Origin: a virus
Virus record (IMG/VR): IMGVR_UViG_3300027714_000004
Coordinates: 62,001-126,000 of that record
DNA: 64,000 bases
Reading direction: 5' to 3' (one strand)
The notes beneath the pieces are model-generated. The model worked only from the letters and a program-made list of their open reading frames with translations, did not search any database and had not been told where the DNA came from. Position 1 is the stretch's first letter, and each line of letters opens with the position of its first letter. Of this stretch, positions 10,211 to 20,494 are shown in pieces. The translations under genes and the position numbers were made by a program.

Positions 10211-10654
10211 ATGAACCGCGAAGCAGTATACAACCAACTCAAGATCGACGAAGGAGTGGTATATGAGATTTACCTCGACCACCTCAACTATCCAACGTTC
10301 GGAGTCGGTCACCTTATTAAGGAAAGTGACGGCGAGTTCGGAGCTAAGGTCGGAACAAAAATATCCCCCGAAAGAGTTAGCGAGGCATTCCAACAAGACC
10401 TCGACATCTCAATCAACGAATGTGTTGTACTATACGGAGAACGGTTCGATTGTTTCCCAGATGAGGTACAGCAAGTCTTGGTTAATATGATGTTTAACCT
10501 AGGTAGACCCCGACTGAGTAAGTTTAAGAACATGTATGCTGCGGTTCTCGAAGGAGACTGGAAGACTGCCGCTGTTGAAGGTCGCGATTCGAAATGGTAT
10601 CGTCAAGTAGGACTCAGGTCTGAACGATTAATGAGAAGGTTAGAGAATGTCTAA
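10211..10654 (+). CDS. e: T4-type lysozyme (endolysin, GH24), 147 aa
   Basis: Cleaves peptidoglycan between MurNAc and GlcNAc at lysis. The catalytic triad of T4 lysozyme is conserved as E14, D23 and T29 in the pattern IDEG...IYLDHLNYPTFGVGHL, and the C-terminal KWYRQVGLRSERLMRR fits the family end. T4 lysozyme is 164 aa. There is no signal or SAR segment, so it needs a holin for release; the 3-TM holin-like protein at 17620 is the best candidate. The gp5-like spike in this phage has no lysozyme domain. Confidence 0.9.
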   Translation: MNREAVYNQLKIDEGVVYEIYLDHLNYPTFGVGHLIKESDGEFGAKVGTKISPERVSEAFQQDLDISINECVVLYGERFDCFPDEVQQVLVNMMFNLGRPRLSKFKNMYAAVLEGDWKTAAVEGRDSKWYRQVGLRSERLMRRLENV

Positions 10655-11495
10655 TAATGTAATATTCCAATACATGATTGTAAATGATGCAGTCGATGCT
10701 CGTGGTAATATTAGAGGTTGGCTTGGTACACGGTCTTCCTTGTACAGAGAAGTAGCAGATATCTCTCGTACATCATTTGAAAAGTACGCAAAGAAGATTG
10801 GTGCAGAACACATCTATTCAGATGAACGAGTCGCTACCAAAGGTCACGAGTGTTCTACCTCACTCTTGCACGAGTGCGCACGTGTCTGGTTAGACCCTAT
10901 GTTCGACCAGTACGACAACCTACTATTCGTCGACACAGACATCGTGGTCAACACCGAAGAGAACATCTTTGACGTGATGGAGTCCGGTGCAGAGGTCTAT
11001 GGTGTCCTAGAGTCGGACTTTGTTACTGCAAATGGTAGCGGGTACAATGCATGGGATGGTGACGAAGAGAACTATAGGAACTTCTGTCGTAAGTTCGAGA
11101 TGCATGACTGTCCCATAGTCCCTGCAATGCCACCTAACAGACCTTCTAAGCTTACCATCATGAATACCGGAGTTGTACTCTGGACTAAGGAAGCGCGTCT
11201 ACGCGCACGTGAACTGTTCATGTCGTGGGAAGACTGGTGTTACACTGGTGACTTCCACATGTCTATTATGAACGACCAACCCTATATCTCCGCACAGTTG
11301 ATGAAGCACGAATTCGACGTAGAGACTATCGATACGACTTGGAACGATAGTCCACACTACGCAACGGTATCAGAGTTCTTCGAGAAAGCAAGGTTCTGTC
11401 ACTACACAGGTGGTGAGTGGAAGACCGATATGGTACGTCACTGGGAAGAGAAACGGTTCAAAACGACCCCTTGGGAACGCAGTCTTATCCCATAG
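10647..11495 (+). CDS. GT-A fold glycosyltransferase with DxD motif, 282 aa
   Basis: Probably transfers a sugar from a nucleotide-sugar donor. It has NLLFVDTDIVVN with D96-T97-D98 as the metal/UDP-sugar-binding DxD, and later IMNTGVVLW and a YTGGEWK segment, as seen in GT8-like enzymes. The ATG overlaps the lysozyme stop by 8 bp with an AAGGT ribosome binding site. First gene of the modification island. The acceptor is unknown. Confidence 0.72.
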   Translation: MSNNVIFQYMIVNDAVDARGNIRGWLGTRSSLYREVADISRTSFEKYAKKIGAEHIYSDERVATKGHECSTSLLHECARVWLDPMFDQYDNLLFVDTDIVVNTEENIFDVMESGAEVYGVLESDFVTANGSGYNAWDGDEENYRNFCRKFEMHDCPIVPAMPPNRPSKLTIMNTGVVLWTKEARLRARELFMSWEDWCYTGDFHMSIMNDQPYISAQLMKHEFDVETIDTTWNDSPHYATVSEFFEKARFCHYTGGEWKTDMVRHWEEKRFKTTPWERSLIP

Positions 11496-11509
11496 AGCCT
11501 AAATACTTC

Positions 11510-11528
11510 ACTTATTTTGAAAATAAGA
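11510..11528 (+). promoter_or_regulatory. Palindrome abutting a -35 box (site 3)
   Basis: ACTTATTTT-G-AAAATAAGA ends one base before TTGACA at 11530; only the last base breaks perfect symmetry. Same element and phase as at 6012 and 6802. Confidence 0.68.
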
Positions 11529-11529
11529 C

Positions 11530-11558
11530 TTGACAAACCTCTCCCATCTTGATATAAT
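11530..11558 (+). promoter_or_regulatory. Sigma70-type promoter
   Basis: TTGACA 11530-11535, 17 bp, TATAAT 11553-11558. The leader differs from the AGCTAC cassettes. Confidence 0.85.
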
Positions 11559-11581
11559 ATAGTCTGAAATGTGAGAGGTTT
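11535..11581 (+). promoter_or_regulatory. SD-sequestering inverted repeat spanning a promoter
   Basis: AAACCTCTC (11535-11543) is fully complementary to GAGAGGTTT (11573-11581), which contains the ribosome binding site for 11586. The left arm lies in the promoter spacer, upstream of the expected start near 11565. Only read-through RNA can form the stem. Confidence 0.6.
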
Positions 11582-11585
11582 TTTT

Positions 11586-11762
11586 ATGTCCGAGTTAAAT
11601 ACCACCAAGATAGAGTTGGCGACCAACTTAGTTAACCACTATATCTATGAACTAAAGAACCCCGATTGGGGACAATTGATGAGTTCCCTGCTAAATGAGG
11701 GGTTGACTTCTTCGGAAGTGTATGTTATAATGAACAAAGTAAAACAAGAGGGGGTTGTGTGA
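11586..11762 (+). CDS. Small hypothetical protein, 58 aa
   Basis: ATG at 11586 follows GAGAGG at 7-nt spacing; this beats an in-frame GTG at 11571. The product is helical and acidic (MSELNTTKIELATNLVNHY...). Its stop overlaps the GTG start of the HAD gene, so the pair is coupled. Confidence 0.65.
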   Translation: MSELNTTKIELATNLVNHYIYELKNPDWGQLMSSLLNEGLTSSEVYVIMNKVKQEGVV

Positions 11763-12334
11763 AAAATAAAGTAATTTTAGTAGACTGTGACGGTGTGTTG
11801 TTGGATTGGATGTATTCATTCCAAGCTTGGATGAAGCGTCACGGGTATGATGCGATTGATGTTGATAAGTACAAGATCCATGAGATCTTCGGTATCTACA
11901 AGACAGAAGGTAAGAAGTTGTGTCGTATGTTCAACGAGAGTGCAACGATCCGTAAGGTTCCGCCTCACAAAGATGCGATCAAGTACGTTAAGAAGTTGCA
12001 CGAAGAAGAAGGTTACATATTCCATGCAGTGACCTCTTTGAGTAACGATGAGTATGCACAACACCTACGTACCAAGAACCTATGTGAGTTGTTCGGGCCT
12101 ACGGTCTTCGAGAAGTATGTCTACCTAGACACGGGTGCTGACAAGGATGAAGCACTTGCAGTGTACAAAGACACCGGATGCATCTGGGTCGAAGATAAGG
12201 TGGAGAATGCACAGGCTGGTGCTGCGGTTGGTCTAGAGTCTTTAGTGATGAAACATGCGTACAACAGTGACTGTACCGAGTTTCCTCTGATGAACAACTG
12301 GAAAGAGATCTACGAGTACATTAAAGGTAAGTAA
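11759..12334 (+). CDS. HAD-family phosphatase, 5'(3')-deoxyribonucleotidase-like, 191 aa
   Basis: Motif I is DCDGVLLDW (nucleophile D9, acid D11), motif II HAVTSLSND, and motif IV WVEDKVENAQAG. This matches the NT5C-type HAD branch, which dephosphorylates (deoxy)nucleoside monophosphates. The GTG at 11759 is chosen because it overlaps the preceding stop, and the next Met lies after motif I. A role in nucleotide salvage or in trimming sugar phosphates for the neighbouring transferases is possible. A strong terminator follows. Confidence 0.75.
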   Translation: MKNKVILVDCDGVLLDWMYSFQAWMKRHGYDAIDVDKYKIHEIFGIYKTEGKKLCRMFNESATIRKVPPHKDAIKYVKKLHEEEGYIFHAVTSLSNDEYAQHLRTKNLCELFGPTVFEKYVYLDTGADKDEALAVYKDTGCIWVEDKVENAQAGAAVGLESLVMKHAYNSDCTEFPLMNNWKEIYEYIKGK

Positions 12335-12352
12335 TCCATTTAATTTCCTTTT

Positions 12353-12376
12353 GGGAGTCTTCGGACTCCCTTTTTT
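12353..12376 (+). terminator. Rho-independent terminator
   Basis: GGGAGTC (12353-12359), TTCG loop, GACTCCC (12364-12370), then six T. Ends the unit starting at 11530. Confidence 0.92.
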
Positions 12377-12384
12377 ATGGGTGG

Positions 12385-12392
12385 TATAAATA
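12385..12392 (+). promoter_or_regulatory. T4-type late promoter
   Basis: TATAAATA immediately after the terminator and 20 bp upstream of the chosen start at 12413. Confidence 0.8.
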
Positions 12393-12412
12393 TAGATTTA
12401 ATGAGGTGTCTG

Positions 12413-13870
12413 ATGAGATACGTAGGGTACAGTGAGTTTTATCATGATGCGGGTCTAGCTATCATTAGCGAAGACGGTGTGGTAGAATTTGCGACACACG
12501 GAGAACGATACTCTAAGAAGAAGAATGACCCTAGACTCCCCCAAGGGCTTTGGAACATGGTGAATGGAGATGACCACATCTCTTTCTATGAAGATCATGT
12601 AACCAAGTTCGATATACGTGGAGGGTTCGACGGTACCGGATATCCTAAAGACGCTGAGTACGATACATTCCATATGCATCACGAATCTCATTGCGCAACC
12701 GCATTCTATACCCGTCCGTGGGACTCGAAGGACGATACTGTCCTCGTCTCGATTGATGGGGTAGGTGAACTACAGACTGCGGTCATCATGGACTCTAACT
12801 TCAACCTAATCAAAGAGTGGCACTACCCTAAGTCGGTAGGACTAGTCTATACCCTTACTACTAAGTTCCTTGGTCTACGTCCACTTGAAGATGAGTACGT
12901 GGTAATGGGACTGTCTGCCTATCAGGATACCAACGAAGAGTCTCGTGCTATCACAGACTGGTTGATTAAATGGTACAATGAACTAGAAGACATCGCACCG
13001 GAGGTAGCACTAGGTGCTACAGTTGGGGGTGTAGACTCTCAACGTGAGAAAGATCGTCTACTATGGAGAGCAGAGTTCGAGAAGAAGATCCTCGCAGTAG
13101 AAGATAAGGTAGCGGCACGTGCTACCCAAGACTTTGCTGACTATGCGATCATGCAGATCATGGGTACGGCAGCGCAGTACGGTAAGAAACTATGTTACTC
13201 CGGTGGTTGTGCACAGAACGTGGTGATCAACTCTAGGTTGTTCGAACTGTTCGATGAGGTACATATCGCATGTTCACCTACAGACGCTGGGTCGGGTCTG
13301 GGTACAGCTGCACGTTCATGGGCAAAGGCAACGGGTAAGGATAAGTTGATCTGGTCTCCGTACTGTGGGTACGATATCGATAGTCCAATCAACCCTACCG
13401 AGGTTGTAGACCACCTACTCAACCATAAGGTATGTGGTATTGCGAACGGTAAGGCAGAGTTCGGGCCTCGTGCATTAGGTAATAGATCCCTGATTGCAGA
13501 CGTACGCTATGACGTACAGGATACAGTGAACGGAATCAAACGTAGACAGAAGTATCGTCCGTTTGCTCCTGCCATCCTAGAAGAGTATGCAGAAGAGTAC
13601 TTCAGCGGCCCTATGAATGACCATATGCAGTTCACCTCTAAGGCACTGCATGACTACGCACCTGTGACCCACGTAGATGGGACTGCACGGGTACAAATCG
13701 TGAAGAAGGACTGTGAGTCTATCTTCAGAAAGGTAATTGAAGAGTACCATGATAGAACTGGTGTTCCGATGCTACTCAATACATCTCTCAATATACGAGG
13801 CAGACCTATGGTCAATGACGAACATGATGCTGCGTTATGGGAACAAAAATACGAAGTAAAGGTATTCTAA
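12413..13870 (+). CDS. NodU/CmcH-family O-carbamoyltransferase, 485 aa
   Basis: Transfers a carbamoyl group from carbamoyl phosphate (through carbamoyl-AMP) to a hydroxyl, usually on a sugar. N-terminal YrdC/TsaD-like half: YVGYSEFYHDAGLAI, MHHESHCATAFYTRPW and SIDGVGELQTAV. C-terminal half: GKAEFGPRALGNRSLIAD and RRQKYRPFAPAIL, with GVPMLLNTSLNIRG. These are hallmark motifs of the family. I choose the ATG at 12413 (GAGGTG ribosome binding site) over 12401. Late promoter upstream, so it acts late. Its stop overlaps the next start. Confidence 0.9.
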   Translation: MRYVGYSEFYHDAGLAIISEDGVVEFATHGERYSKKKNDPRLPQGLWNMVNGDDHISFYEDHVTKFDIRGGFDGTGYPKDAEYDTFHMHHESHCATAFYTRPWDSKDDTVLVSIDGVGELQTAVIMDSNFNLIKEWHYPKSVGLVYTLTTKFLGLRPLEDEYVVMGLSAYQDTNEESRAITDWLIKWYNELEDIAPEVALGATVGGVDSQREKDRLLWRAEFEKKILAVEDKVAARATQDFADYAIMQIMGTAAQYGKKLCYSGGCAQNVVINSRLFELFDEVHIACSPTDAGSGLGTAARSWAKATGKDKLIWSPYCGYDIDSPINPTEVVDHLLNHKVCGIANGKAEFGPRALGNRSLIADVRYDVQDTVNGIKRRQKYRPFAPAILEEYAEEYFSGPMNDHMQFTSKALHDYAPVTHVDGTARVQIVKKDCESIFRKVIEEYHDRTGVPMLLNTSLNIRGRPMVNDEHDAALWEQKYEVKVF

Positions 13871-14196
13871 TGACCGAAGAACTAAAACCAATCAAACAAA
13901 AGATTGAACTTGAAGTAGAGTTCGATACCACCCAAAAGGAAGTGATCCCTAGTAGGTTCAGTGTCCTATTGGACTTTGCGGACGTGATCGATGCGTATCG
14001 ACTATTCCCACGTGCCTTCATAGCAACCTACCTGTTCCTATTGATCGATACCGCAGAATGGTTCATGACCATACCTGAACCTAATGCATCACAGGCAGGT
14101 CTTATCTCTGTTATCATCGGTGCGGGTGCTGCATGGTTCGGTCTATACACCTCTACAGGTTCTGGACGTTCATCAAAGAGTACTAAGTCTAACTAA
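13870..14196 (+). CDS. Two-pass membrane protein, 108 aa
   Basis: ATG overlaps the carbamoyltransferase stop (TAATG). It has two hydrophobic segments, about residues 51-70 (FIATYLFLLIDTAEWFM) and 79-97 (GLISVIIGAGAAWFGLYT), and a Ser/Lys-rich C-tail. DFADVIDAYRLFPRA and AAWFGLYTSTGSG match a small membrane protein common in marine phages, sometimes called holin-like. Its position inside the transferase operon also allows a membrane-anchoring role. Confidence 0.7.
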   Translation: MTEELKPIKQKIELEVEFDTTQKEVIPSRFSVLLDFADVIDAYRLFPRAFIATYLFLLIDTAEWFMTIPEPNASQAGLISVIIGAGAAWFGLYTSTGSGRSSKSTKSN

Positions 14197-15080
14197 TGAA
14201 ACCTTCCGAATTAGTAACTTGGAGAGGTACGCCAGGCGTAGGCGATTTCATGTGGGCATTGAATTGCTGTCACCAGTACGCAGCCGATCACAATATTCGG
14301 AAGATCAACTTAGAGCTTCATTGGGAGCATGGTGAAGACCACCTCCATCACTTCGAAGATCCAGAAACGATCATCGAACGATGTAATTACATACACAACT
14401 TCTATTACCAACAGGAACGGGTAGAGGTACATCATATATTCAATGCTCAAGGTAGGTATAGAGATTGGAAGTTTAATGATGATATTGTTTTGGAAACAAA
14501 TGGTGAGCGTAGAATAGTTGCGATAAAGAAACCTAAAGCGCGATATTATTTTGAATCCGGATACTACAATGACCAGCCGAATAATGATGTTCCTGATAGT
14601 AACTGGATATTCAGACAAGACGCATTTCAAGACTACGACCCCAACCGAATAGTTTTCTGGAGACCAACTTGGAATGCAGAGAAACCCCGCACTTGGAAAA
14701 GACTATTTTCAAATGACGATTGGGATGAGTTGATCGGACACTTCACGGATAAGGGGTTCAATATGCATGAAGTCTCCTATCGCACCCCCGTAAGAGAAGT
14801 GATGCATCTAATAGCAACTTCACGTATGGTTATATGTTACGATGGCATATGGCACTACATTGCAAAGAACTTTGCTAGACCACTCGCGGTAATCAGTGGA
14901 GAAGGTGTTACTAAATACCATACACCAAATGCCCTAAGACTGAATCCAGATATAAGGTCTATAGAAAATGGCGTCGATGTATGGTGGTGGATAGATCATA
15001 TGGAAGATTTGCTACAAGAGACCAAAAGAAGATCGGTAGAATACGAAGATAGAATAAGGACTCGTTATGGAAATGACTAG
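14196..15080 (+). CDS. GT-B/heptosyltransferase-like protein, 294 aa
   Basis: TAATG overlap with the upstream gene. N-terminal WRGTPGVGDFMWALN is like the GxGD opening of GT9 family heptosyltransferases. The C-terminal segment with ATSRMVICYDGIWHYIAKNF and PLAVISGEGV is like the donor-binding part of the same fold. The central half is divergent, so this is a tentative family call. The context of glycosyltransferases and a carbamoyltransferase supports sugar transfer. Confidence 0.58.
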   Translation: MKPSELVTWRGTPGVGDFMWALNCCHQYAADHNIRKINLELHWEHGEDHLHHFEDPETIIERCNYIHNFYYQQERVEVHHIFNAQGRYRDWKFNDDIVLETNGERRIVAIKKPKARYYFESGYYNDQPNNDVPDSNWIFRQDAFQDYDPNRIVFWRPTWNAEKPRTWKRLFSNDDWDELIGHFTDKGFNMHEVSYRTPVREVMHLIATSRMVICYDGIWHYIAKNFARPLAVISGEGVTKYHTPNALRLNPDIRSIENGVDVWWWIDHMEDLLQETKRRSVEYEDRIRTRYGND

Positions 15081-16053
15081 AGATACATTTCAGATTGATC
15101 GTGCAGTAATCGAGGTTGCGGGTGGATGCAACTATTCTTGCTCTATGTGTCCACAAGACCTGCGTGAAGGTGGTCGACATAAAGGGTTTCGTCGTATCAT
15201 GAAACTAGATGAGTTCGAGAAGTATGTTGCGGACTGCGCACAGTACGGATTGAATGTAGTCAACCTAGATGGATCTGGTGAAGCCACTATGGCAAAGAAC
15301 CTACCTGAGTATATCAAGGTAGTGAAGAAATACGGTGCCAAGGCATTCATCTTCTCTAATGGATTCAAGATGGAAGGTCAGTACATGCGCGACTGTGTTG
15401 ACGCGGGACTAGACTTCTATCGATTCTCATTCGTCGGTGCGGATGAACAAGACTATAGTAAGTGGATGTACAACGCGATAGGTGGCCACTACGCACAGAT
15501 CAAACGTAACATCCAAGAGATGGTTGCGTACGTAGAAGAGACTAAGGCAGACTGTGTTGTATCTACCTACCATCTAATCACTGACAACGATAACATCGAC
15601 AGTGAACTAGACAAGTACAAAGCATTGGTAGATGAACTAGGTGTCAAGACCGAGATATGGAAGATGCATAACTGGTCTGGTACTTGGGACATCGGAGATA
15701 ATGCGCGAGATGGTAAGATAAAGACTTGTGGTAGACCGTTCTCTCCAGACGTAGTGATACGTGCGGGTGGACTTGAGAAGCAGACAGGTGCGGTACATCC
15801 TTGTTGTCAGGTACTAGGTCGAGACGAGGAAGCAGTGTTAGGTCACTGTTCAGAGGATAACATCGCTGACATCTTCTTTGGTGAAGCATACGAGACTCTA
15901 CGTGAACAACATCGAACCGGAGACTACCCAGACTTCTGTAAGAGCTGCGATTTCTTAATCGATGACCCCGAAGTGTTGGTCTATACCAACCATGAACGGG
16001 ATTTGATGAAAATGCATGGAACTAATTTTGATCTTAACGATTATAGAGATTGA
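15067..16053 (+). CDS. Radical SAM protein with SPASM-like C-terminus, 328 aa
   Basis: The canonical radical SAM cluster motif is present as C21-x3-C25-x2-C28 (GGCNYSCSMCPQ), followed by a glycine-rich DGSGEATM SAM-binding segment. The C-terminal third has further Cys (KTCGRPF, HPCCQ, FCKSC), as in SPASM auxiliary-cluster enzymes. Such proteins carry out radical chemistry on sugars, peptides or cofactors. The start overlaps the previous gene by 14 bp, with AAGGAC upstream. It is the last gene before a late promoter. Confidence 0.85.
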   Translation: MEMTRDTFQIDRAVIEVAGGCNYSCSMCPQDLREGGRHKGFRRIMKLDEFEKYVADCAQYGLNVVNLDGSGEATMAKNLPEYIKVVKKYGAKAFIFSNGFKMEGQYMRDCVDAGLDFYRFSFVGADEQDYSKWMYNAIGGHYAQIKRNIQEMVAYVEETKADCVVSTYHLITDNDNIDSELDKYKALVDELGVKTEIWKMHNWSGTWDIGDNARDGKIKTCGRPFSPDVVIRAGGLEKQTGAVHPCCQVLGRDEEAVLGHCSEDNIADIFFGEAYETLREQHRTGDYPDFCKSCDFLIDDPEVLVYTNHERDLMKMHGTNFDLNDYRD

Positions 16054-16058
16054 ATCGT

Positions 16059-16066
16059 TATAAATA
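16059..16066 (+). promoter_or_regulatory. T4-type late promoter
   Basis: TATAAATA just after the radical SAM gene; leader of about 90 nt to the ATG at 16158. Confidence 0.75.
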
Positions 16067-16157
16067 ATATCACTTATCCGTATTCGACTGGCCAGTCCGA
16101 GATTTAATTCGCACCGTGCGGAAAGACACTTTTAAAAGAATATATAAAGGAATCCTC

Positions 16158-16871
16158 ATGGATAACGAACAAAGCATAGAAAAGTTAGCAGATCATTTTT
16201 TAGTCGGCAGCGCATTATCAGGACACTCATATGTCCAGAATCTATATGGCATGTATATCCGGTTCGAGCAAGAGATGGTAACCGAACGATCAAATATGTT
16301 TATTTCTAACGAAGCATATCATAAAGTATATAAACCCCTCATTGCAACCTCTCTCGATTTCCAGCCACATGGAGACACCGTTAATGTAGATGTCCTTAAA
16401 GAAGGTCAAGCATTAGGGAACCTTGAACCAGAGCAGTTGATGAGAATCACTCGTGACTATAAAGATGTGTTGGTGAACTTGTGGAAGACCCACTCTCCAG
16501 ATCTTTCTTGGGAAGACTTCATGCAAACTCCATTAGGGTTTGTTCTGATATCTGACTTCGAAACAGCGGCCAGTGAGTTTGTATATGATCTAGAGTTTTC
16601 CTATGAAGAACTTGTAACTTCTCCTCATCAGGTAATTACTTCTATCGTAGAGCACTTGCTTCCTAGAGAAAGTAATCCTGAACTAGAAACTTTTGGTCAA
16701 GCACATAGATCTATAAGTCTTAACGCTATTGATCGAGTTGTATCAGAATCCGCCATACGTACCCTACGTGAAGGACAGACTGACGGTATGCTAGATAGTG
16801 TAGGTGTTTACAAGCAGTTCTTGACACCAGATCAAGCTGGCGAAGTAGATGAGTTCGTATCGAACCTATAA
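16158..16871 (+). CDS. Late hypothetical protein, 237 aa
   Basis: I use the ATG at 16158 (AAAGGA ribosome binding site) rather than a GTG at 16116. A mostly helical, acidic protein in its own late unit, with a terminator behind it. The segment FSYEELVTSPHQVITSIVEHLLP is reminiscent of the C-terminal part of sulfotransferases (YEdL...dP...), but no PAPS-binding loop is visible, so I do not assign it. Confidence 0.65.
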   Translation: MDNEQSIEKLADHFLVGSALSGHSYVQNLYGMYIRFEQEMVTERSNMFISNEAYHKVYKPLIATSLDFQPHGDTVNVDVLKEGQALGNLEPEQLMRITRDYKDVLVNLWKTHSPDLSWEDFMQTPLGFVLISDFETAASEFVYDLEFSYEELVTSPHQVITSIVEHLLPRESNPELETFGQAHRSISLNAIDRVVSESAIRTLREGQTDGMLDSVGVYKQFLTPDQAGEVDEFVSNL

Positions 16872-16897
16872 TCCACTAGTTAAATTTTAGATAGATA

Positions 16898-16930
16898 AGA
16901 CGGGTTAGGAAACTTTCCCGTCTTTTTTTT
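16898..16930 (+). terminator. Rho-independent terminator
   Basis: AAGACGGG (16898-16905) pairs with CCCGTCTT (16918-16925) and is followed by a run of T. Confidence 0.92.
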
Positions 16931-16944
16931 GTTTTGAGAATATT

Positions 16945-17604
16945 ATGGTTAGGAAGAGTTTTTTAACAGGATGTGACTATAACACCGAATGGCAACTGCC
17001 GTGGTTTATAGAGAACTTCATCGAGCATTCGACAGGGATCTTACAGATCGCTGACTTTGGTATGTCCAATGATATGTTGGACTTGATCGAGCACCACCCT
17101 AGGTTCGGTAAACAAATATACATCCTTAGTTTTGAAAACAACCTAAGTGGTTGGTTCAAGAAACCTCGTGCAATATACACTGCAACTAGTGATGGGTTCA
17201 GTATATGTTGGCTAGATACCGACTGTCAGATAGACGGAGACATAGATTCTATATGGGATCATTTCGAAGGCGGTAGACTGGGGATGGTAGTAGACCGACC
17301 TTGGACTAAGAGAAGACCAGACAACGGGGAGTGGTACAACTCTGGGGTCGTTCTAAGCGACCGCAACCCTACCCTGACATCTTGGATGCACTCTTGTGAG
17401 GAAGATCAGACGGAGTCAGACCAGTACGTCCTGTACCATATGCACACCCCCATAGAACGAATAGGTAAGATATATCCTATACCTCACGAATATAATACGT
17501 TACGATTAGACTACATAGATAATGTAGCTGTAGATAATCCTATCGTTATACACCATACAGGTAAGAAAGGTAATGATGTGATTAGACAACAGATGAATGT
17601 TTAA
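16945..17604 (+). CDS. GT-A fold glycosyltransferase, 219 aa
   Basis: Shows a DxD in CWLDTDCQIDGD (D91-T92-D93), followed by EWYNSGVVLSDR and a terminal IHHTGKKG, the order expected for GT8-like enzymes with a metal-binding His near the end. It is shorter than the enzyme at 10647 and not closely similar outside these motifs. Second DxD transferase of the island. Its start is only 15 bp after a terminator, so its promoter is unclear. Confidence 0.72.
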   Translation: MVRKSFLTGCDYNTEWQLPWFIENFIEHSTGILQIADFGMSNDMLDLIEHHPRFGKQIYILSFENNLSGWFKKPRAIYTATSDGFSICWLDTDCQIDGDIDSIWDHFEGGRLGMVVDRPWTKRRPDNGEWYNSGVVLSDRNPTLTSWMHSCEEDQTESDQYVLYHMHTPIERIGKIYPIPHEYNTLRLDYIDNVAVDNPIVIHHTGKKGNDVIRQQMNV

Positions 17605-17619
17605 TATTGGAGAAATAAT

Positions 17620-18090
17620 ATGTTAAGTGGCTTAATAGGTTCGCTTTTGGGATTCGGGGGTTCACTTGTACCTGCGATAACGGATCACTTTAAATCCAAA
17701 AGAGACAACGAATTTGAACTAAAAAAGATGGAGAAGATGGCAGAACTACGTGCTGCTGGATTCGACCATGATATGGAGATGTTTCAGACGCAAGCGGCAG
17801 ACAATGAACACGCTCGTTTGATTCAACACGACATTAGTATTAATCAAGGGACTGGAATTATCGCGAACCTACAGAAATCTGTTCGTCCGATAATCACGTA
17901 CTCTTTCTTTATTCTATTCGCGATTATAGAATGGAATTTATTACAACAGGCATTAGAAACCGGCGCACTCATGGGGGACGCATTGGACGCCTTATGGGAT
18001 GAAGATACCAAAGCGATATTCGCTGCGATTATTTCTTTCTGGTTCGGTTCACGTGCAGTAGAGAAGGCGCGAGAACGCCCAATGAAATAA
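17620..18090 (+). CDS. 3-TM holin-family-like protein, 156 aa
   Basis: N-terminal hydrophobic segment (LSGLIGSLLGFGGSLVPAI), a charged helical linker, then VRPIITYSFFILFAIIEW and a final KAIFAAIISFWFGSRAVEK. This architecture and the last motif match the 3-TM holin family (GTA_holin_3TM type). It would permeabilise the inner membrane and release the lysozyme encoded at 10211. Confidence 0.72.
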   Translation: MLSGLIGSLLGFGGSLVPAITDHFKSKRDNEFELKKMEKMAELRAAGFDHDMEMFQTQAADNEHARLIQHDISINQGTGIIANLQKSVRPIITYSFFILFAIIEWNLLQQALETGALMGDALDALWDEDTKAIFAAIISFWFGSRAVEKARERPMK

Positions 18091-18100
18091 GGTGAAGGAA

Positions 18101-18451
18101 ATGTATAGTTATGAAGCAAAGATCCGCAGATGGGTGGATGGCGATACCGTTGACGTTGATATTGATCTTGGGTTCGGTCTTGTTTACAGTAATCAGCGGT
18201 TGCGTCTATATGGGATTGATGCTTATGAGTCGCGCACACGAGACCTTGACGAAAAGAAGAAAGGTCTTGAGGCAAAGGATTACGTCAAAAAGATGGCTCC
18301 CGAAGGAAGTACGGTAAGTATCATCACCCACAAGACAGGTAAGTACGGTAGAATCCTTGCAGAGGTCTTCGTAGAAGTTTCCTACAACGACTGGCAAAGT
18401 ATCAATTCACTTTTAATAAAAGAAGGCCATGCCACAGAATATCTTATTTAA
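18101..18451 (+). CDS. Staphylococcal-nuclease (SNase) homologue, 116 aa
   Basis: OB-fold Ca-dependent nuclease. Key residues are conserved: DGDT near residue 13, R35, D40 and E43 in RLRLYGIDAYESR, and R84 in KYGRILAE. There is no signal peptide, so it would act in the cytoplasm or at lysis. I take the ATG at 18101 with AAGGTG as ribosome binding site instead of the GTG at 18092. Could degrade host DNA. Confidence 0.85.
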   Translation: MYSYEAKIRRWVDGDTVDVDIDLGFGLVYSNQRLRLYGIDAYESRTRDLDEKKKGLEAKDYVKKMAPEGSTVSIITHKTGKYGRILAEVFVEVSYNDWQSINSLLIKEGHATEYLI

Positions 18452-18459
18452 GATAATCT

Positions 18460-18488
18460 TTGACCTAGTGAATAGGTTATGGTATACT
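18460..18488 (+). promoter_or_regulatory. Sigma70-type promoter
   Basis: TTGACC 18460-18465, 17 bp, TATACT 18483-18488, 22 bp before the ATG at 18511 with AAGGAAG. Confidence 0.75.
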
Positions 18489-18510
18489 GTGGGCATTATA
18501 AGGAAGAATC

Positions 18511-19161
18511 ATGAGACGAGTTAATGTACTGGGTAATGGCGATCACGCCAGTCTATACAAGAAAGGTACTGAAGGTGAATTGGTGGTATGTAACATGCCT
18601 CCAATTGAACTGAGTAAGGAAGATGTCTATGCTTCATGCATGGTCGACTTCAAGATGATGTCTGCCCTAGAAGAGGGTCAAGTTAACCTTGGAGATTATG
18701 ACTGGGTATTGGGTGCACGACCACGTAGATGGATGGAGCTGAAACCATCGTTCTACCTAAAGTATTCCCAGAACATTAAAGGGTTCCATACCTATGTTCC
18801 ACCCTATGCCCAGTTGCCCGGCAACAAATTATCAGATGCTGCTACCAACTACTCCTGCGGACATATGGCAGTAGACTATGCGTGTCGTATCATGAAAGCG
18901 ACCGAGGTACATTTGTACGGGTTCGATGCGATGTTTGACATGAATCTAAACAGTCATACTGATAACTTCTTGAAGAGTGATAGAAGCGCGTTGAACGTGC
19001 ACCGCATGGCGAGTAACTGGCGTCCTATTTGGCACGGGTTCTTTAAAGAGTTCTGTAACGTCAAGTTCGTTATCCATCACAACCATTCTGATATTAAGTT
19101 AATTTTACCAGATAATACAACTGTTGAAGTAGGAGAGTTAGATGTTAGAGAAGATTCTTAA
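18511..19161 (+). CDS. Rossmann-type protein, sialyltransferase/DUF115-like, 216 aa
   Basis: N-terminal VNVLGNGDHASLY is a Gly-rich nucleotide-binding-like start. CGHMAVDYACRIMKATEVHLYGFDAMFD resembles the substrate-sensing part of bacterial sialyltransferase or DUF115 proteins (usually Gx..A...A...G...I.L.GFD). The assignment is by pattern only. It sits next to the modification island and has its own early-type promoter. Confidence 0.5.
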   Translation: MRRVNVLGNGDHASLYKKGTEGELVVCNMPPIELSKEDVYASCMVDFKMMSALEEGQVNLGDYDWVLGARPRRWMELKPSFYLKYSQNIKGFHTYVPPYAQLPGNKLSDAATNYSCGHMAVDYACRIMKATEVHLYGFDAMFDMNLNSHTDNFLKSDRSALNVHRMASNWRPIWHGFFKEFCNVKFVIHHNHSDIKLILPDNTTVEVGELDVREDS

Positions 19162-19329: not shown

Positions 19330-20175
19330 TTAGAATATTTTGATCATGTTCTTCATGATTTCGCATTCTTCCGGACGGCCTTCTGATATCCAATCATCCC
19401 ACGATGAACGTAGTGCAAAGGATATATCAACCATAGTCTGGTTGTCTTTCTCTTCACCATTGATCCACTTAACGGCAGATGATGCACCGTAGTAGATATC
19501 AATCATATCAAATTCTGGGGTACACATAGGTGCAAATATCTCACGGACTTGATCGTCTTCAAACCCTACTTCTTGGTCTTGCATAGGAACACCTAGGAAT
19601 ACGACTGCGTCGAACTTCTCGTGTTCACCTTCTAGAGACCAAGATGATTGTCCATGCTTGTACTGATGAGAACATGTTAATGTCTTATCAATCATACCTG
19701 AAGCCATATACATCTCATGCATAGCGCCTTTGTACTTAGTCTCTGGTGGACGGACAATAGTGAACTTCGCATTGTATCCATACATGTCCATCACTAGAGG
19801 GATGCTCTGAGCGATAATGTTCATGTCTGGGAAAGTTGTCATATGTGCACGTTCTGGAGGAAGTAGGTCAACCATTCTGTCAGCGCGATAACTTAACATC
19901 CAGTGACTCTGACCTTCGTTTACGTGACCAACAAACAATACATTCTTATATCCTTTGGACATAATTGCATTACAGAACATTGGTGCACGAGACAACATTT
20001 CTTCGGACATATTGATCTCGTCAGACTTATGACGTAGGTACTTACCTTTCTTGACAGTTGCTTGATTCAAGGCAGTATTCATCTGTAGAGCAAGATGCTC
20101 TTTCTTTCCTTTTGAAACGAATTTCTGATTTTCTCCATCGGTTAAAATGGTTTCATCTGATGTGTTAAAAAACAT
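19330..20175 (-). CDS. Late hypothetical protein, 281 aa
   Basis: Leftward, second gene of a two-gene late unit with an AGGGATCC ribosome binding site. Met-rich (many DMN, MYMASGM segments). It has alternating strand/helix patterns (NVLFVGHVNEG, FDAVVFLGVPM) that suggest an alpha/beta fold. I do not recognise it. It might be a virion or assembly protein because of the late promoter. Confidence 0.65.
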   Translation of the reverse strand: MFFNTSDETILTDGENQKFVSKGKKEHLALQMNTALNQATVKKGKYLRHKSDEINMSEEMLSRAPMFCNAIMSKGYKNVLFVGHVNEGQSHWMLSYRADRMVDLLPPERAHMTTFPDMNIIAQSIPLVMDMYGYNAKFTIVRPPETKYKGAMHEMYMASGMIDKTLTCSHQYKHGQSSWSLEGEHEKFDAVVFLGVPMQDQEVGFEDDQVREIFAPMCTPEFDMIDIYYGASSAVKWINGEEKDNQTMVDISFALRSSWDDWISEGRPEECEIMKNMIKIF

Positions 20176-20178
20176 TGG

Positions 20179-20433
20179 TTAGGATCCCTTATAGATGTTT
20201 TGTATGTGTGTTTCGAATTGCTCGATCTTGTCCAATCGATTCGGCCATAAGATGTACTCCTTTTCAGGATTCGCCTTTAGGTTCGTCAATAACGGTTGAA
20301 TCGCATTGAATAGGTTATCGAGTCGTGTGTGGTAATCATCAGCATCAGAGGATATGGACTCTAACTGTTGGACAGCTTCGAGTTCCGACTCGTCTACTAC
20401 TGTGAAACCGAAATCAAATAGTTCTGTATTCAT
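20179..20433 (-). CDS. Conserved small protein of marine T4-like phages, 84 aa
   Basis: I choose the ATG at 20433 (MNTELFDFGFTVVDESELEAV) over a TTG at 20472. The C-terminal pattern ANPEKEYILWPNRLDKIEQFE is one I remember from short proteins in many marine T4-like genomes, though without a known function. The ATG lies only about 6 nt from the late promoter, and no Shine-Dalgarno sequence is seen, so the late mRNA may be leaderless. Confidence 0.7.
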   Translation of the reverse strand: MNTELFDFGFTVVDESELEAVQQLESISSDADDYHTRLDNLFNAIQPLLTNLKANPEKEYILWPNRLDKIEQFETHIQNIYKGS

Positions 20434-20438
20434 AGGGT

Positions 20439-20446
20439 TATTTATA
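20439..20446 (-). promoter_or_regulatory. T4-type late promoter, leftward
   Basis: TATAAATA on the minus strand, ending about 6 nt from the ATG at 20433. Confidence 0.72.
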
Positions 20447-20465
20447 CCTTTTTTTTGGTCAGCCC

Positions 20466-20494
20466 TTGACAAAGCTTGATATATCTGTTACAAT
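20466..20494 (+). promoter_or_regulatory. Sigma70-type promoter
   Basis: TTGACA 20466-20471, 17 bp, TACAAT 20489-20494, before the gene at 20523. Its -35 is about 20 bp from the leftward late promoter, so the two units diverge from one control region. Confidence 0.8.

Follow-up and report, generated by a model that had tools for sequence, protein, structure and literature searches.

What does a marine phage make with a run of sugar-active genes that it appears to transcribe late in infection? The question is raised by positions 10,647 to 19,161 of a 64,000-nucleotide stretch of viral DNA (the window), which comprises bases 62001-126000 of the 145,426-base virus record IMGVR_UViG_3300027714_000004. 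A sequence-only reading had described this segment as an island for the synthesis or modification of glycans, and open reading frames (ORFs) were found at all the coordinates that it gave. A role as a late-expressed island for glycan synthesis or modification now appears well supported, because several sugar-active families lie within one stretch, together with a sulfotransferase gene that had been overlooked and late promoters that are conserved, and because larger polysaccharide clusters stand behind the same central gene pair in divergent relatives. That pair encodes a protein with the predicted fold of a GT9 glycosyltransferase and a radical S-adenosylmethionine (SAM) enzyme. Genes are named here by the position given for them in the earlier reading or by the opening of their ORF.

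The source is evidently a T4-like marine phage with relatives classed in the Kyanoviridae; T4-like genes in its genome include those for ribonucleotide reductase, a SegE-like nuclease and phage lysozyme. Among named relatives, Phage C48C1 (OQ984149, Kyanoviridae; host not recorded) comes nearest, and the order of its island genes is identical. A cyanophage host was considered and set aside, as a psbA-type gene was found neither in the window's record nor in C48C1. For comparison we scanned IMG/VR, where 323 viral contig stretches encode the radical SAM protein, and retained 80 loci, most of them arranged as in the window phage. Gene content was counted in the loci with enough sequence, numbering 67 on the upstream side and 51 on the downstream side.

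A GT9-like fold paired with a radical SAM enzyme

The earlier reading had called the product of 14196 GT-B-like, and structural modelling agrees with this. No Pfam family matches the sequence, and Glyco_transf_9 was found only in two of 32 homologues, with E = 0.08. We built an AlphaFold2 model on 31 homologues, the C48C1 rows being excluded from the alignments used for this and the other structure model. Foldseek placed TibC first (E = 3e-5), followed by WaaC (1e-4) and WaaF, and 27 of the 28 PDB chains at E ≤ 0.001 were GT9 enzymes. These heptosyltransferases share the GT-B fold with 14196 at a Foldseek probability of 1.0; sequence identity to it is 11-15%, and the TM scores are about 0.4-0.5. 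Since the Glyco_transf_9 cut-off was not reached, we describe the protein as having a predicted GT9-like fold and do not file it as a member of GT9.

The assignment of 15067 to the radical SAM/SPASM proteins holds firmly, with a radical SAM domain scoring 44.7 bits against a cut-off of 29.5, a C-terminal SPASM-type domain and a CxxxCxxC motif in 79 of 80 homologues. Cysteines 21/25/28, 221, 246/247 and 291/294 are invariant in 19 diverse homologues, and the conserved cysteines of the alignment also include 57, 110 and 163. The best PDB match of the auxiliary domain is the radical SAM dehydrogenase BtrN (4M7S/4M7T). The alignment with BtrN takes in both the core and the auxiliary Fe-S domain, covering the radical SAM motif and the region of the auxiliary cysteines, at weak sequence similarity (E = 4e-5). 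C246 and C291/C294 align with cysteines of BtrN, while C221 lies upstream of the aligned stretch. Given the ligands of the BtrN cluster, the pattern would fit a single auxiliary cluster, i.e., the "twitch" form of the domain. When four island families were aligned, the mean column identity was 80% for the radical SAM protein, 66% for 18511, 54% for the GT9-like protein and 47% for the sulfotransferase, which indicates a strong constraint on the function of the radical SAM enzyme.

Every locus that has both genes (about 79) places the GT9-like gene immediately upstream of the radical SAM gene, and the two overlap by 3 to 13 bases in most of them, counted from the ORF ends. Among annotated phage records the radical SAM protein was found only in C48C1 at E ≤ 0.001. 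Cellular copies were sought in 84,980 species genomes (GTDB) using conserved peptide patterns, which distant cellular relatives may escape. Two close copies were found (L088 and L089), and since their neighbouring genes are those of the window phage, both very likely represent contigs of phages that had been binned into metagenome-assembled genomes; a cellular origin of the enzyme was rejected on the same ground. The other matches in the species genomes are just 25-31% identical. The pair thus appears to be widespread, and in viruses only. A distant homologue in the Magnetococcales sits among ORFs for SDR, Gfo/Idh-like and methyltransferase proteins (families judged by eye), a neighbourhood that we read as a glycan-type cluster.

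The gene-content counts show that the pair is the core of the island and that its periphery varies. In L066 and L083, two divergent loci, some 9 kb of genes for GT25, GT8, methyltransferase, NDP-sugar epimerase, HAD-nucleotidyltransferase fusion and sulfotransferase proteins come after the pair in a longer glycan cluster, and L066 also has a second radical SAM gene. No other evidence speaks as strongly for the predicted glycan pathway as these surroundings.

Late promoters and the genes around the pair

The sequence-only reading had placed late promoters at 12385 and 16059. Both are exact copies of the T4-type late promoter TATAAATA, and both are conserved in relatives. In the window the sequence occurs 11 times against 4.1 expected, a number reached by none of 100 shuffles. 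Among non-identical related loci it precedes the sulfotransferase gene in 35 of 35, where 1.4 would be expected by chance, and the carbamoyltransferase gene in 32 of 49, where 1.6 would be expected; four further loci have GATAAATA at the carbamoyltransferase position. The loci share ancestry and the counts are thus not independent events; the control is given by the remaining upstream regions of these loci. In the relatives TATAAATA stands before no further glycan gene of the island. The two promoters are predicted to define two transcription units, the first extending from the carbamoyltransferase to the radical SAM gene and the second from the sulfotransferase gene to 18511 (Table 1). A further copy is found at 20439, on the strand of two minus-strand genes at 19330-20472 that are kept in most related loci and whose function is unassigned.

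Table 1. Features of the island, with positions in the window
Feature	Positions	Strand	Basis or remark
GT8-like glycosyltransferase, DTD motif	10647..11495	+	Pfam PF01501 E 8e-5; present in 61/67 loci
HAD-superfamily phosphatase/5'-nucleotidase-like enzyme, DxDGVL motif	11759..12334	+	phrog_420 1.6e-36; NT5C 3.8e-5 (borderline)
T4-type late promoter TATAAATA, unit 1	12385..12392	+	exact; before carbamoyltransferase
NodU/TobZ-type O-carbamoyltransferase	12413..13870	+	PF16861 2.2e-45; PF02543 1.9e-27
Small predicted membrane protein, phrog_10198	13837..14196	+	membrane nature judged from sequence
GT-B glycosyltransferase, predicted GT9 (heptosyltransferase/TibC-like) fold	14196..15080	+	AlphaFold2 model pLDDT 88; Foldseek
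Radical SAM enzyme, probable BtrN-like auxiliary Fe-S (twitch/SPASM) domain	15067..16053	+	PF04055 2.1e-11; PF13186 2.7e-7; overlaps GT9-like gene
T4-type late promoter TATAAATA, unit 2	16059..16066	+	exact; before sulfotransferase
Sulfotransferase	16158..16871 (ORF opens 16116)	+	likely ATG 16158 after AAAGGAA; family via homologues
Second GT8-like glycosyltransferase, DTD motif	16945..17604	+	PF01501 1.4e-3; 16/51 loci
Conserved protein, DUF115/MptE-like at best	18511..19161	+	model pLDDT 90; BFVD

The identification of 12413 as a NodU/CmcH carbamoyltransferase stands. Both domains score far over their cut-offs (Carbam_trans_N 97.0 bits against 24; Carbam_trans_C 154.7 bits against 27), the PDB matches are NovN, GdmN and TobZ, and the motifs of the metal site and ligand are intact, an HHxxH-type motif being present in 57 of 59 homologues and FGPRALG in 58. 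With an AGG-type ribosome site before the ATG at 12413 and the late promoter at 12385, the likely start is 12413, as in the earlier reading, and not position 12377 of the longest ORF. A match is found in 62 of the 67 loci. In cyanophage S-RIM44 the carbamoyltransferase is annotated as two adjoining pieces (NC_047734.1 193287-195542) directly after thyX.

The two DxD glycosyltransferases of the earlier reading are borne out as GT8-like, and are described only as such, their scores against PF01501 falling below the cut-off of 24.3 bits (22.8 bits for 10647 and 18.7 bits for 16945). The DxD motif is found as a fixed pattern in 54 of 67 homologues of 10647, and in all 22 of 16945. The HAD enzyme is likewise confirmed; its motif is kept in 58 of 63 homologues and a match is present in 59 of 67 loci. 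In some divergent loci the matches to the carbamoyltransferase, the GT8-like gene 10647 and the HAD gene are weak or located elsewhere. The small gene 13837 is missing from about one third of the loci. It is one of three non-glycan genes within the span, the others being 17620 (holin-like) and 18092 (nuclease-like).

The window copy of 16116 by itself has no sulfotransferase family match. Its homologues match PF13469 in seven of 28 cases (best E = 1.8e-7) and PF00685 in six (to 9.5e-5), and the RD..KDV and YEELV stretches expected of sulfotransferases are seen in the alignment. The gene is present in 36 of the 51 loci.

One label of the earlier reading does not survive. The gene 18511, found in 41 of 51 loci, had been called sialyltransferase-like, yet searches by sequence, PDB fold and viral fold all failed to support this. 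GT29 was found in a single one of 26 homologues (E = 0.15) with no other sialyltransferase match in sequence, and the confident model matched nothing in the PDB at E ≤ 0.001. In BFVD it matches uncharacterised phage proteins (to 2.5e-13) and, weakly, DUF115 (1.7e-3).

A proposed pathway and its alternatives

We give about an even chance to the proposal that the late-expressed island builds a glycan and decorates it, with the virion as the most likely site. Starting from the observed families, GT9-like fold, pairing and conserved late promoters, we infer the following reactions, reaction order and acceptor. Two late operons would be transcribed, one encoding the carbamoyltransferase, the small membrane protein, the GT9-like transferase and the radical SAM enzyme, and the other the sulfotransferase, the GT8-like, holin-like and nuclease-like proteins and 18511. 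The glycosyltransferases would transfer sugars to an acceptor, one particular sugar being added by the GT9-like enzyme. The radical SAM enzyme encoded by the overlapping gene may oxidise, epimerise or remodel that sugar by hydrogen-atom abstraction in the manner of BtrN, before or after transfer, and the carbamoyltransferase and sulfotransferase would then cap hydroxyls. Of the possible acceptors, a surface protein of the virion is the likeliest, with the host envelope second; the virion is preferred because the late promoters would time the genes with virion assembly. TibC, the best match of the GT9-like fold, is a protein heptosyltransferase, the acceptor being protein.

Several observations weigh against this proposal. 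The match of 14196 to WaaC and WaaF, which act on the lipopolysaccharide (LPS) core, is almost as good as that to TibC. Holin-like and nuclease-like genes also belong to the late operons, and co-transcription alone is no proof of one pathway. The second GT8-like gene and the sulfotransferase gene are absent from many relatives, and changes made to the host envelope late in infection would fit the timing as well.

The island might thus remodel the LPS, the capsule or some other surface glycan of the host in the manner of seroconversion, blocking superinfection or the sticking of progeny to lysed cells. The GT9, GT8 and GT25 families are typical of LPS cores, the island genes are located among lysis-type genes, and the cyanophages P-SSM2 and S-SSM7 are reported to have large LPS gene clusters (PMC3037559). 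However, conserved promoters of the late class would act late for superinfection exclusion, and the island has no recognisable gene for a flippase, a polymerase or an O-antigen ligase. We regard modification of the host surface as possible, if on the unlikely side.

Many radical SAM/SPASM enzymes work on peptides, and several maturase models for ribosomally synthesised and post-translationally modified peptides match 15067 weakly. The enzyme could on this basis modify a peptide or virion protein, its neighbours being a mixed set. Yet its invariant partner is a predicted glycosyltransferase and no peptide, the best PDB match of its auxiliary domain is the cyclitol enzyme BtrN, and the small gene 13837 is not constant among the loci. 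Such a role seems improbable.

Lastly, the carbamoyltransferase and glycosyltransferases might act on 5-hydroxymethylcytosine (5hmC) in the phage DNA. A phage-associated 5hmC carbamoyltransferase is on record (PMC8670742), C48C1 carries a TET/JBP dioxygenase, and there is a C5-cytosine methyltransferase in the window's genome. Partner genes were sought in 19 records, some of them only fragments, that carry either the island or a carbamoyltransferase related to that of the window. A homologue of thymidylate synthase/dCMP hydroxymethylase was found in none; TET was found in one (C48C1) and a C5-methylase in two others, so that no record has both. The specificity positions (TobZ 408/421/423; PMC8670742) were mapped by matching the 13- and 2-residue spacing in NovN. 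They read I-G-R in 12413, compared with I-C-T in the 5hmC enzyme and W-G-R in the solved structures of NovN and GdmN; the isoleucine at 408 is thus common to the 5hmC enzyme, but the G and R are those of the antibiotic enzymes, and two of three positions fit the non-DNA class. In the study of the 5hmC enzyme, carbamoyltransferases of unmodified contigs were found next to glycosyltransferases (PMC8670742). Given the partner-gene and specificity-residue results, hypermodification of DNA is disfavoured, and we would consider it very improbable. The C5-cytosine DNA methyltransferase (G000:C1:27792-28940; L004:7792-8940) has a counterpart in just one other of the 19 records, that of L030. In C48C1 the dioxygenase (E = 3.3e-19) is unannotated; after it come a gene for a possible glycosyltransferase and one resembling that of UDP-galactopyranose mutase, both judged by eye (OQ984149.1 49583-53030); this TET-led stretch is a possible DNA-modification cassette.

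Relation to known phage clusters

The earlier reading had regarded the combination of O-carbamoylation with radical SAM chemistry as unusual in a phage. This view is weakened both by the IMG/VR loci that share the window phage's arrangement and by the Pelagibacter phage Mosig EXVC030M (MT647606, Kyanoviridae), in which a carbamoyltransferase gene has radical SAM, GT8-like and further sugar genes as its neighbours. Mosig differs, however, in that its carbamoyltransferase is only about 28% identical to 12413, its radical SAM proteins have no match to 15067 at E ≤ 0.001, and it carries a DegT aminotransferase and a nitroreductase-like gene. The announcement of Mosig does not discuss the carbamoyltransferase/radical SAM island (PMC7892664). 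C48C1 is far closer, its radical SAM protein being 93% and its carbamoyltransferase 76% identical. It differs in its downstream glycosyltransferase, which is not a BLAST-recognised homologue of 16945, and in having TET, and its island is mostly annotated as hypothetical. Large glycan clusters and carbamoyltransferases are also found in the T4-like marine phages P-SSM2 and S-SSM7; the function of those clusters is unknown and "stuffer DNA" was considered (PMC3037559), whereas in the island of the window both the GT9-like/radical SAM core and the late promoters are conserved.

Glycan clusters of phages are therefore already known, as are carbamoyltransferases in T4-like marine phages, and the carbamoyltransferase with radical SAM is not unique. 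What is new is the conserved virus-only pair, on the evidence of the genomes searched, with its conserved late promoters and sulfotransferase. Literature searches found nothing on the pair (most subscription journals and preprints lay outside the search), on Phage C48C1 or on marine phages that combine a sulfotransferase with radical SAM. Taken further, the GT9-like and radical SAM proteins might form a two-enzyme module found only in viruses that adds a sugar and alters it through radical chemistry, giving a sulfated, O-carbamoylated glycan, not previously described, on the virions of widespread marine phages; we hold this to be doubtful. Glycans made by phages represent a little explored chemistry, and the tie between the conserved pair and late promoters makes its role testable, in terms of what marine T4-like phages add to virions or hosts and the effect on adsorption. 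A member of the radical SAM superfamily with a virion or surface sugar as its substrate would also represent a new enzyme function.

Some further genes were seen in these genomes. A NAD-dependent sugar epimerase gene at G000:C1:35166-37093 (L004:15166-17093) is followed by a UDP-sugar dehydrogenase-like gene in which the C-terminal domain was undetected; both belong to the window's genome and count in favour of the proposed glycan pathway. The protein encoded at G000:C1:48381-49799 is 64% conserved with CDS0082 of C48C1, which has CxxCH motifs and a lipoprotein-like start and, by eye, resembles a di-haem peroxidase. C48C1 also has SdhB-like CDS0053 and isocitrate lyase-like CDS0055 (OQ984149.1 43111-45416), judged by eye to be possible auxiliary genes of the tricarboxylic acid cycle.

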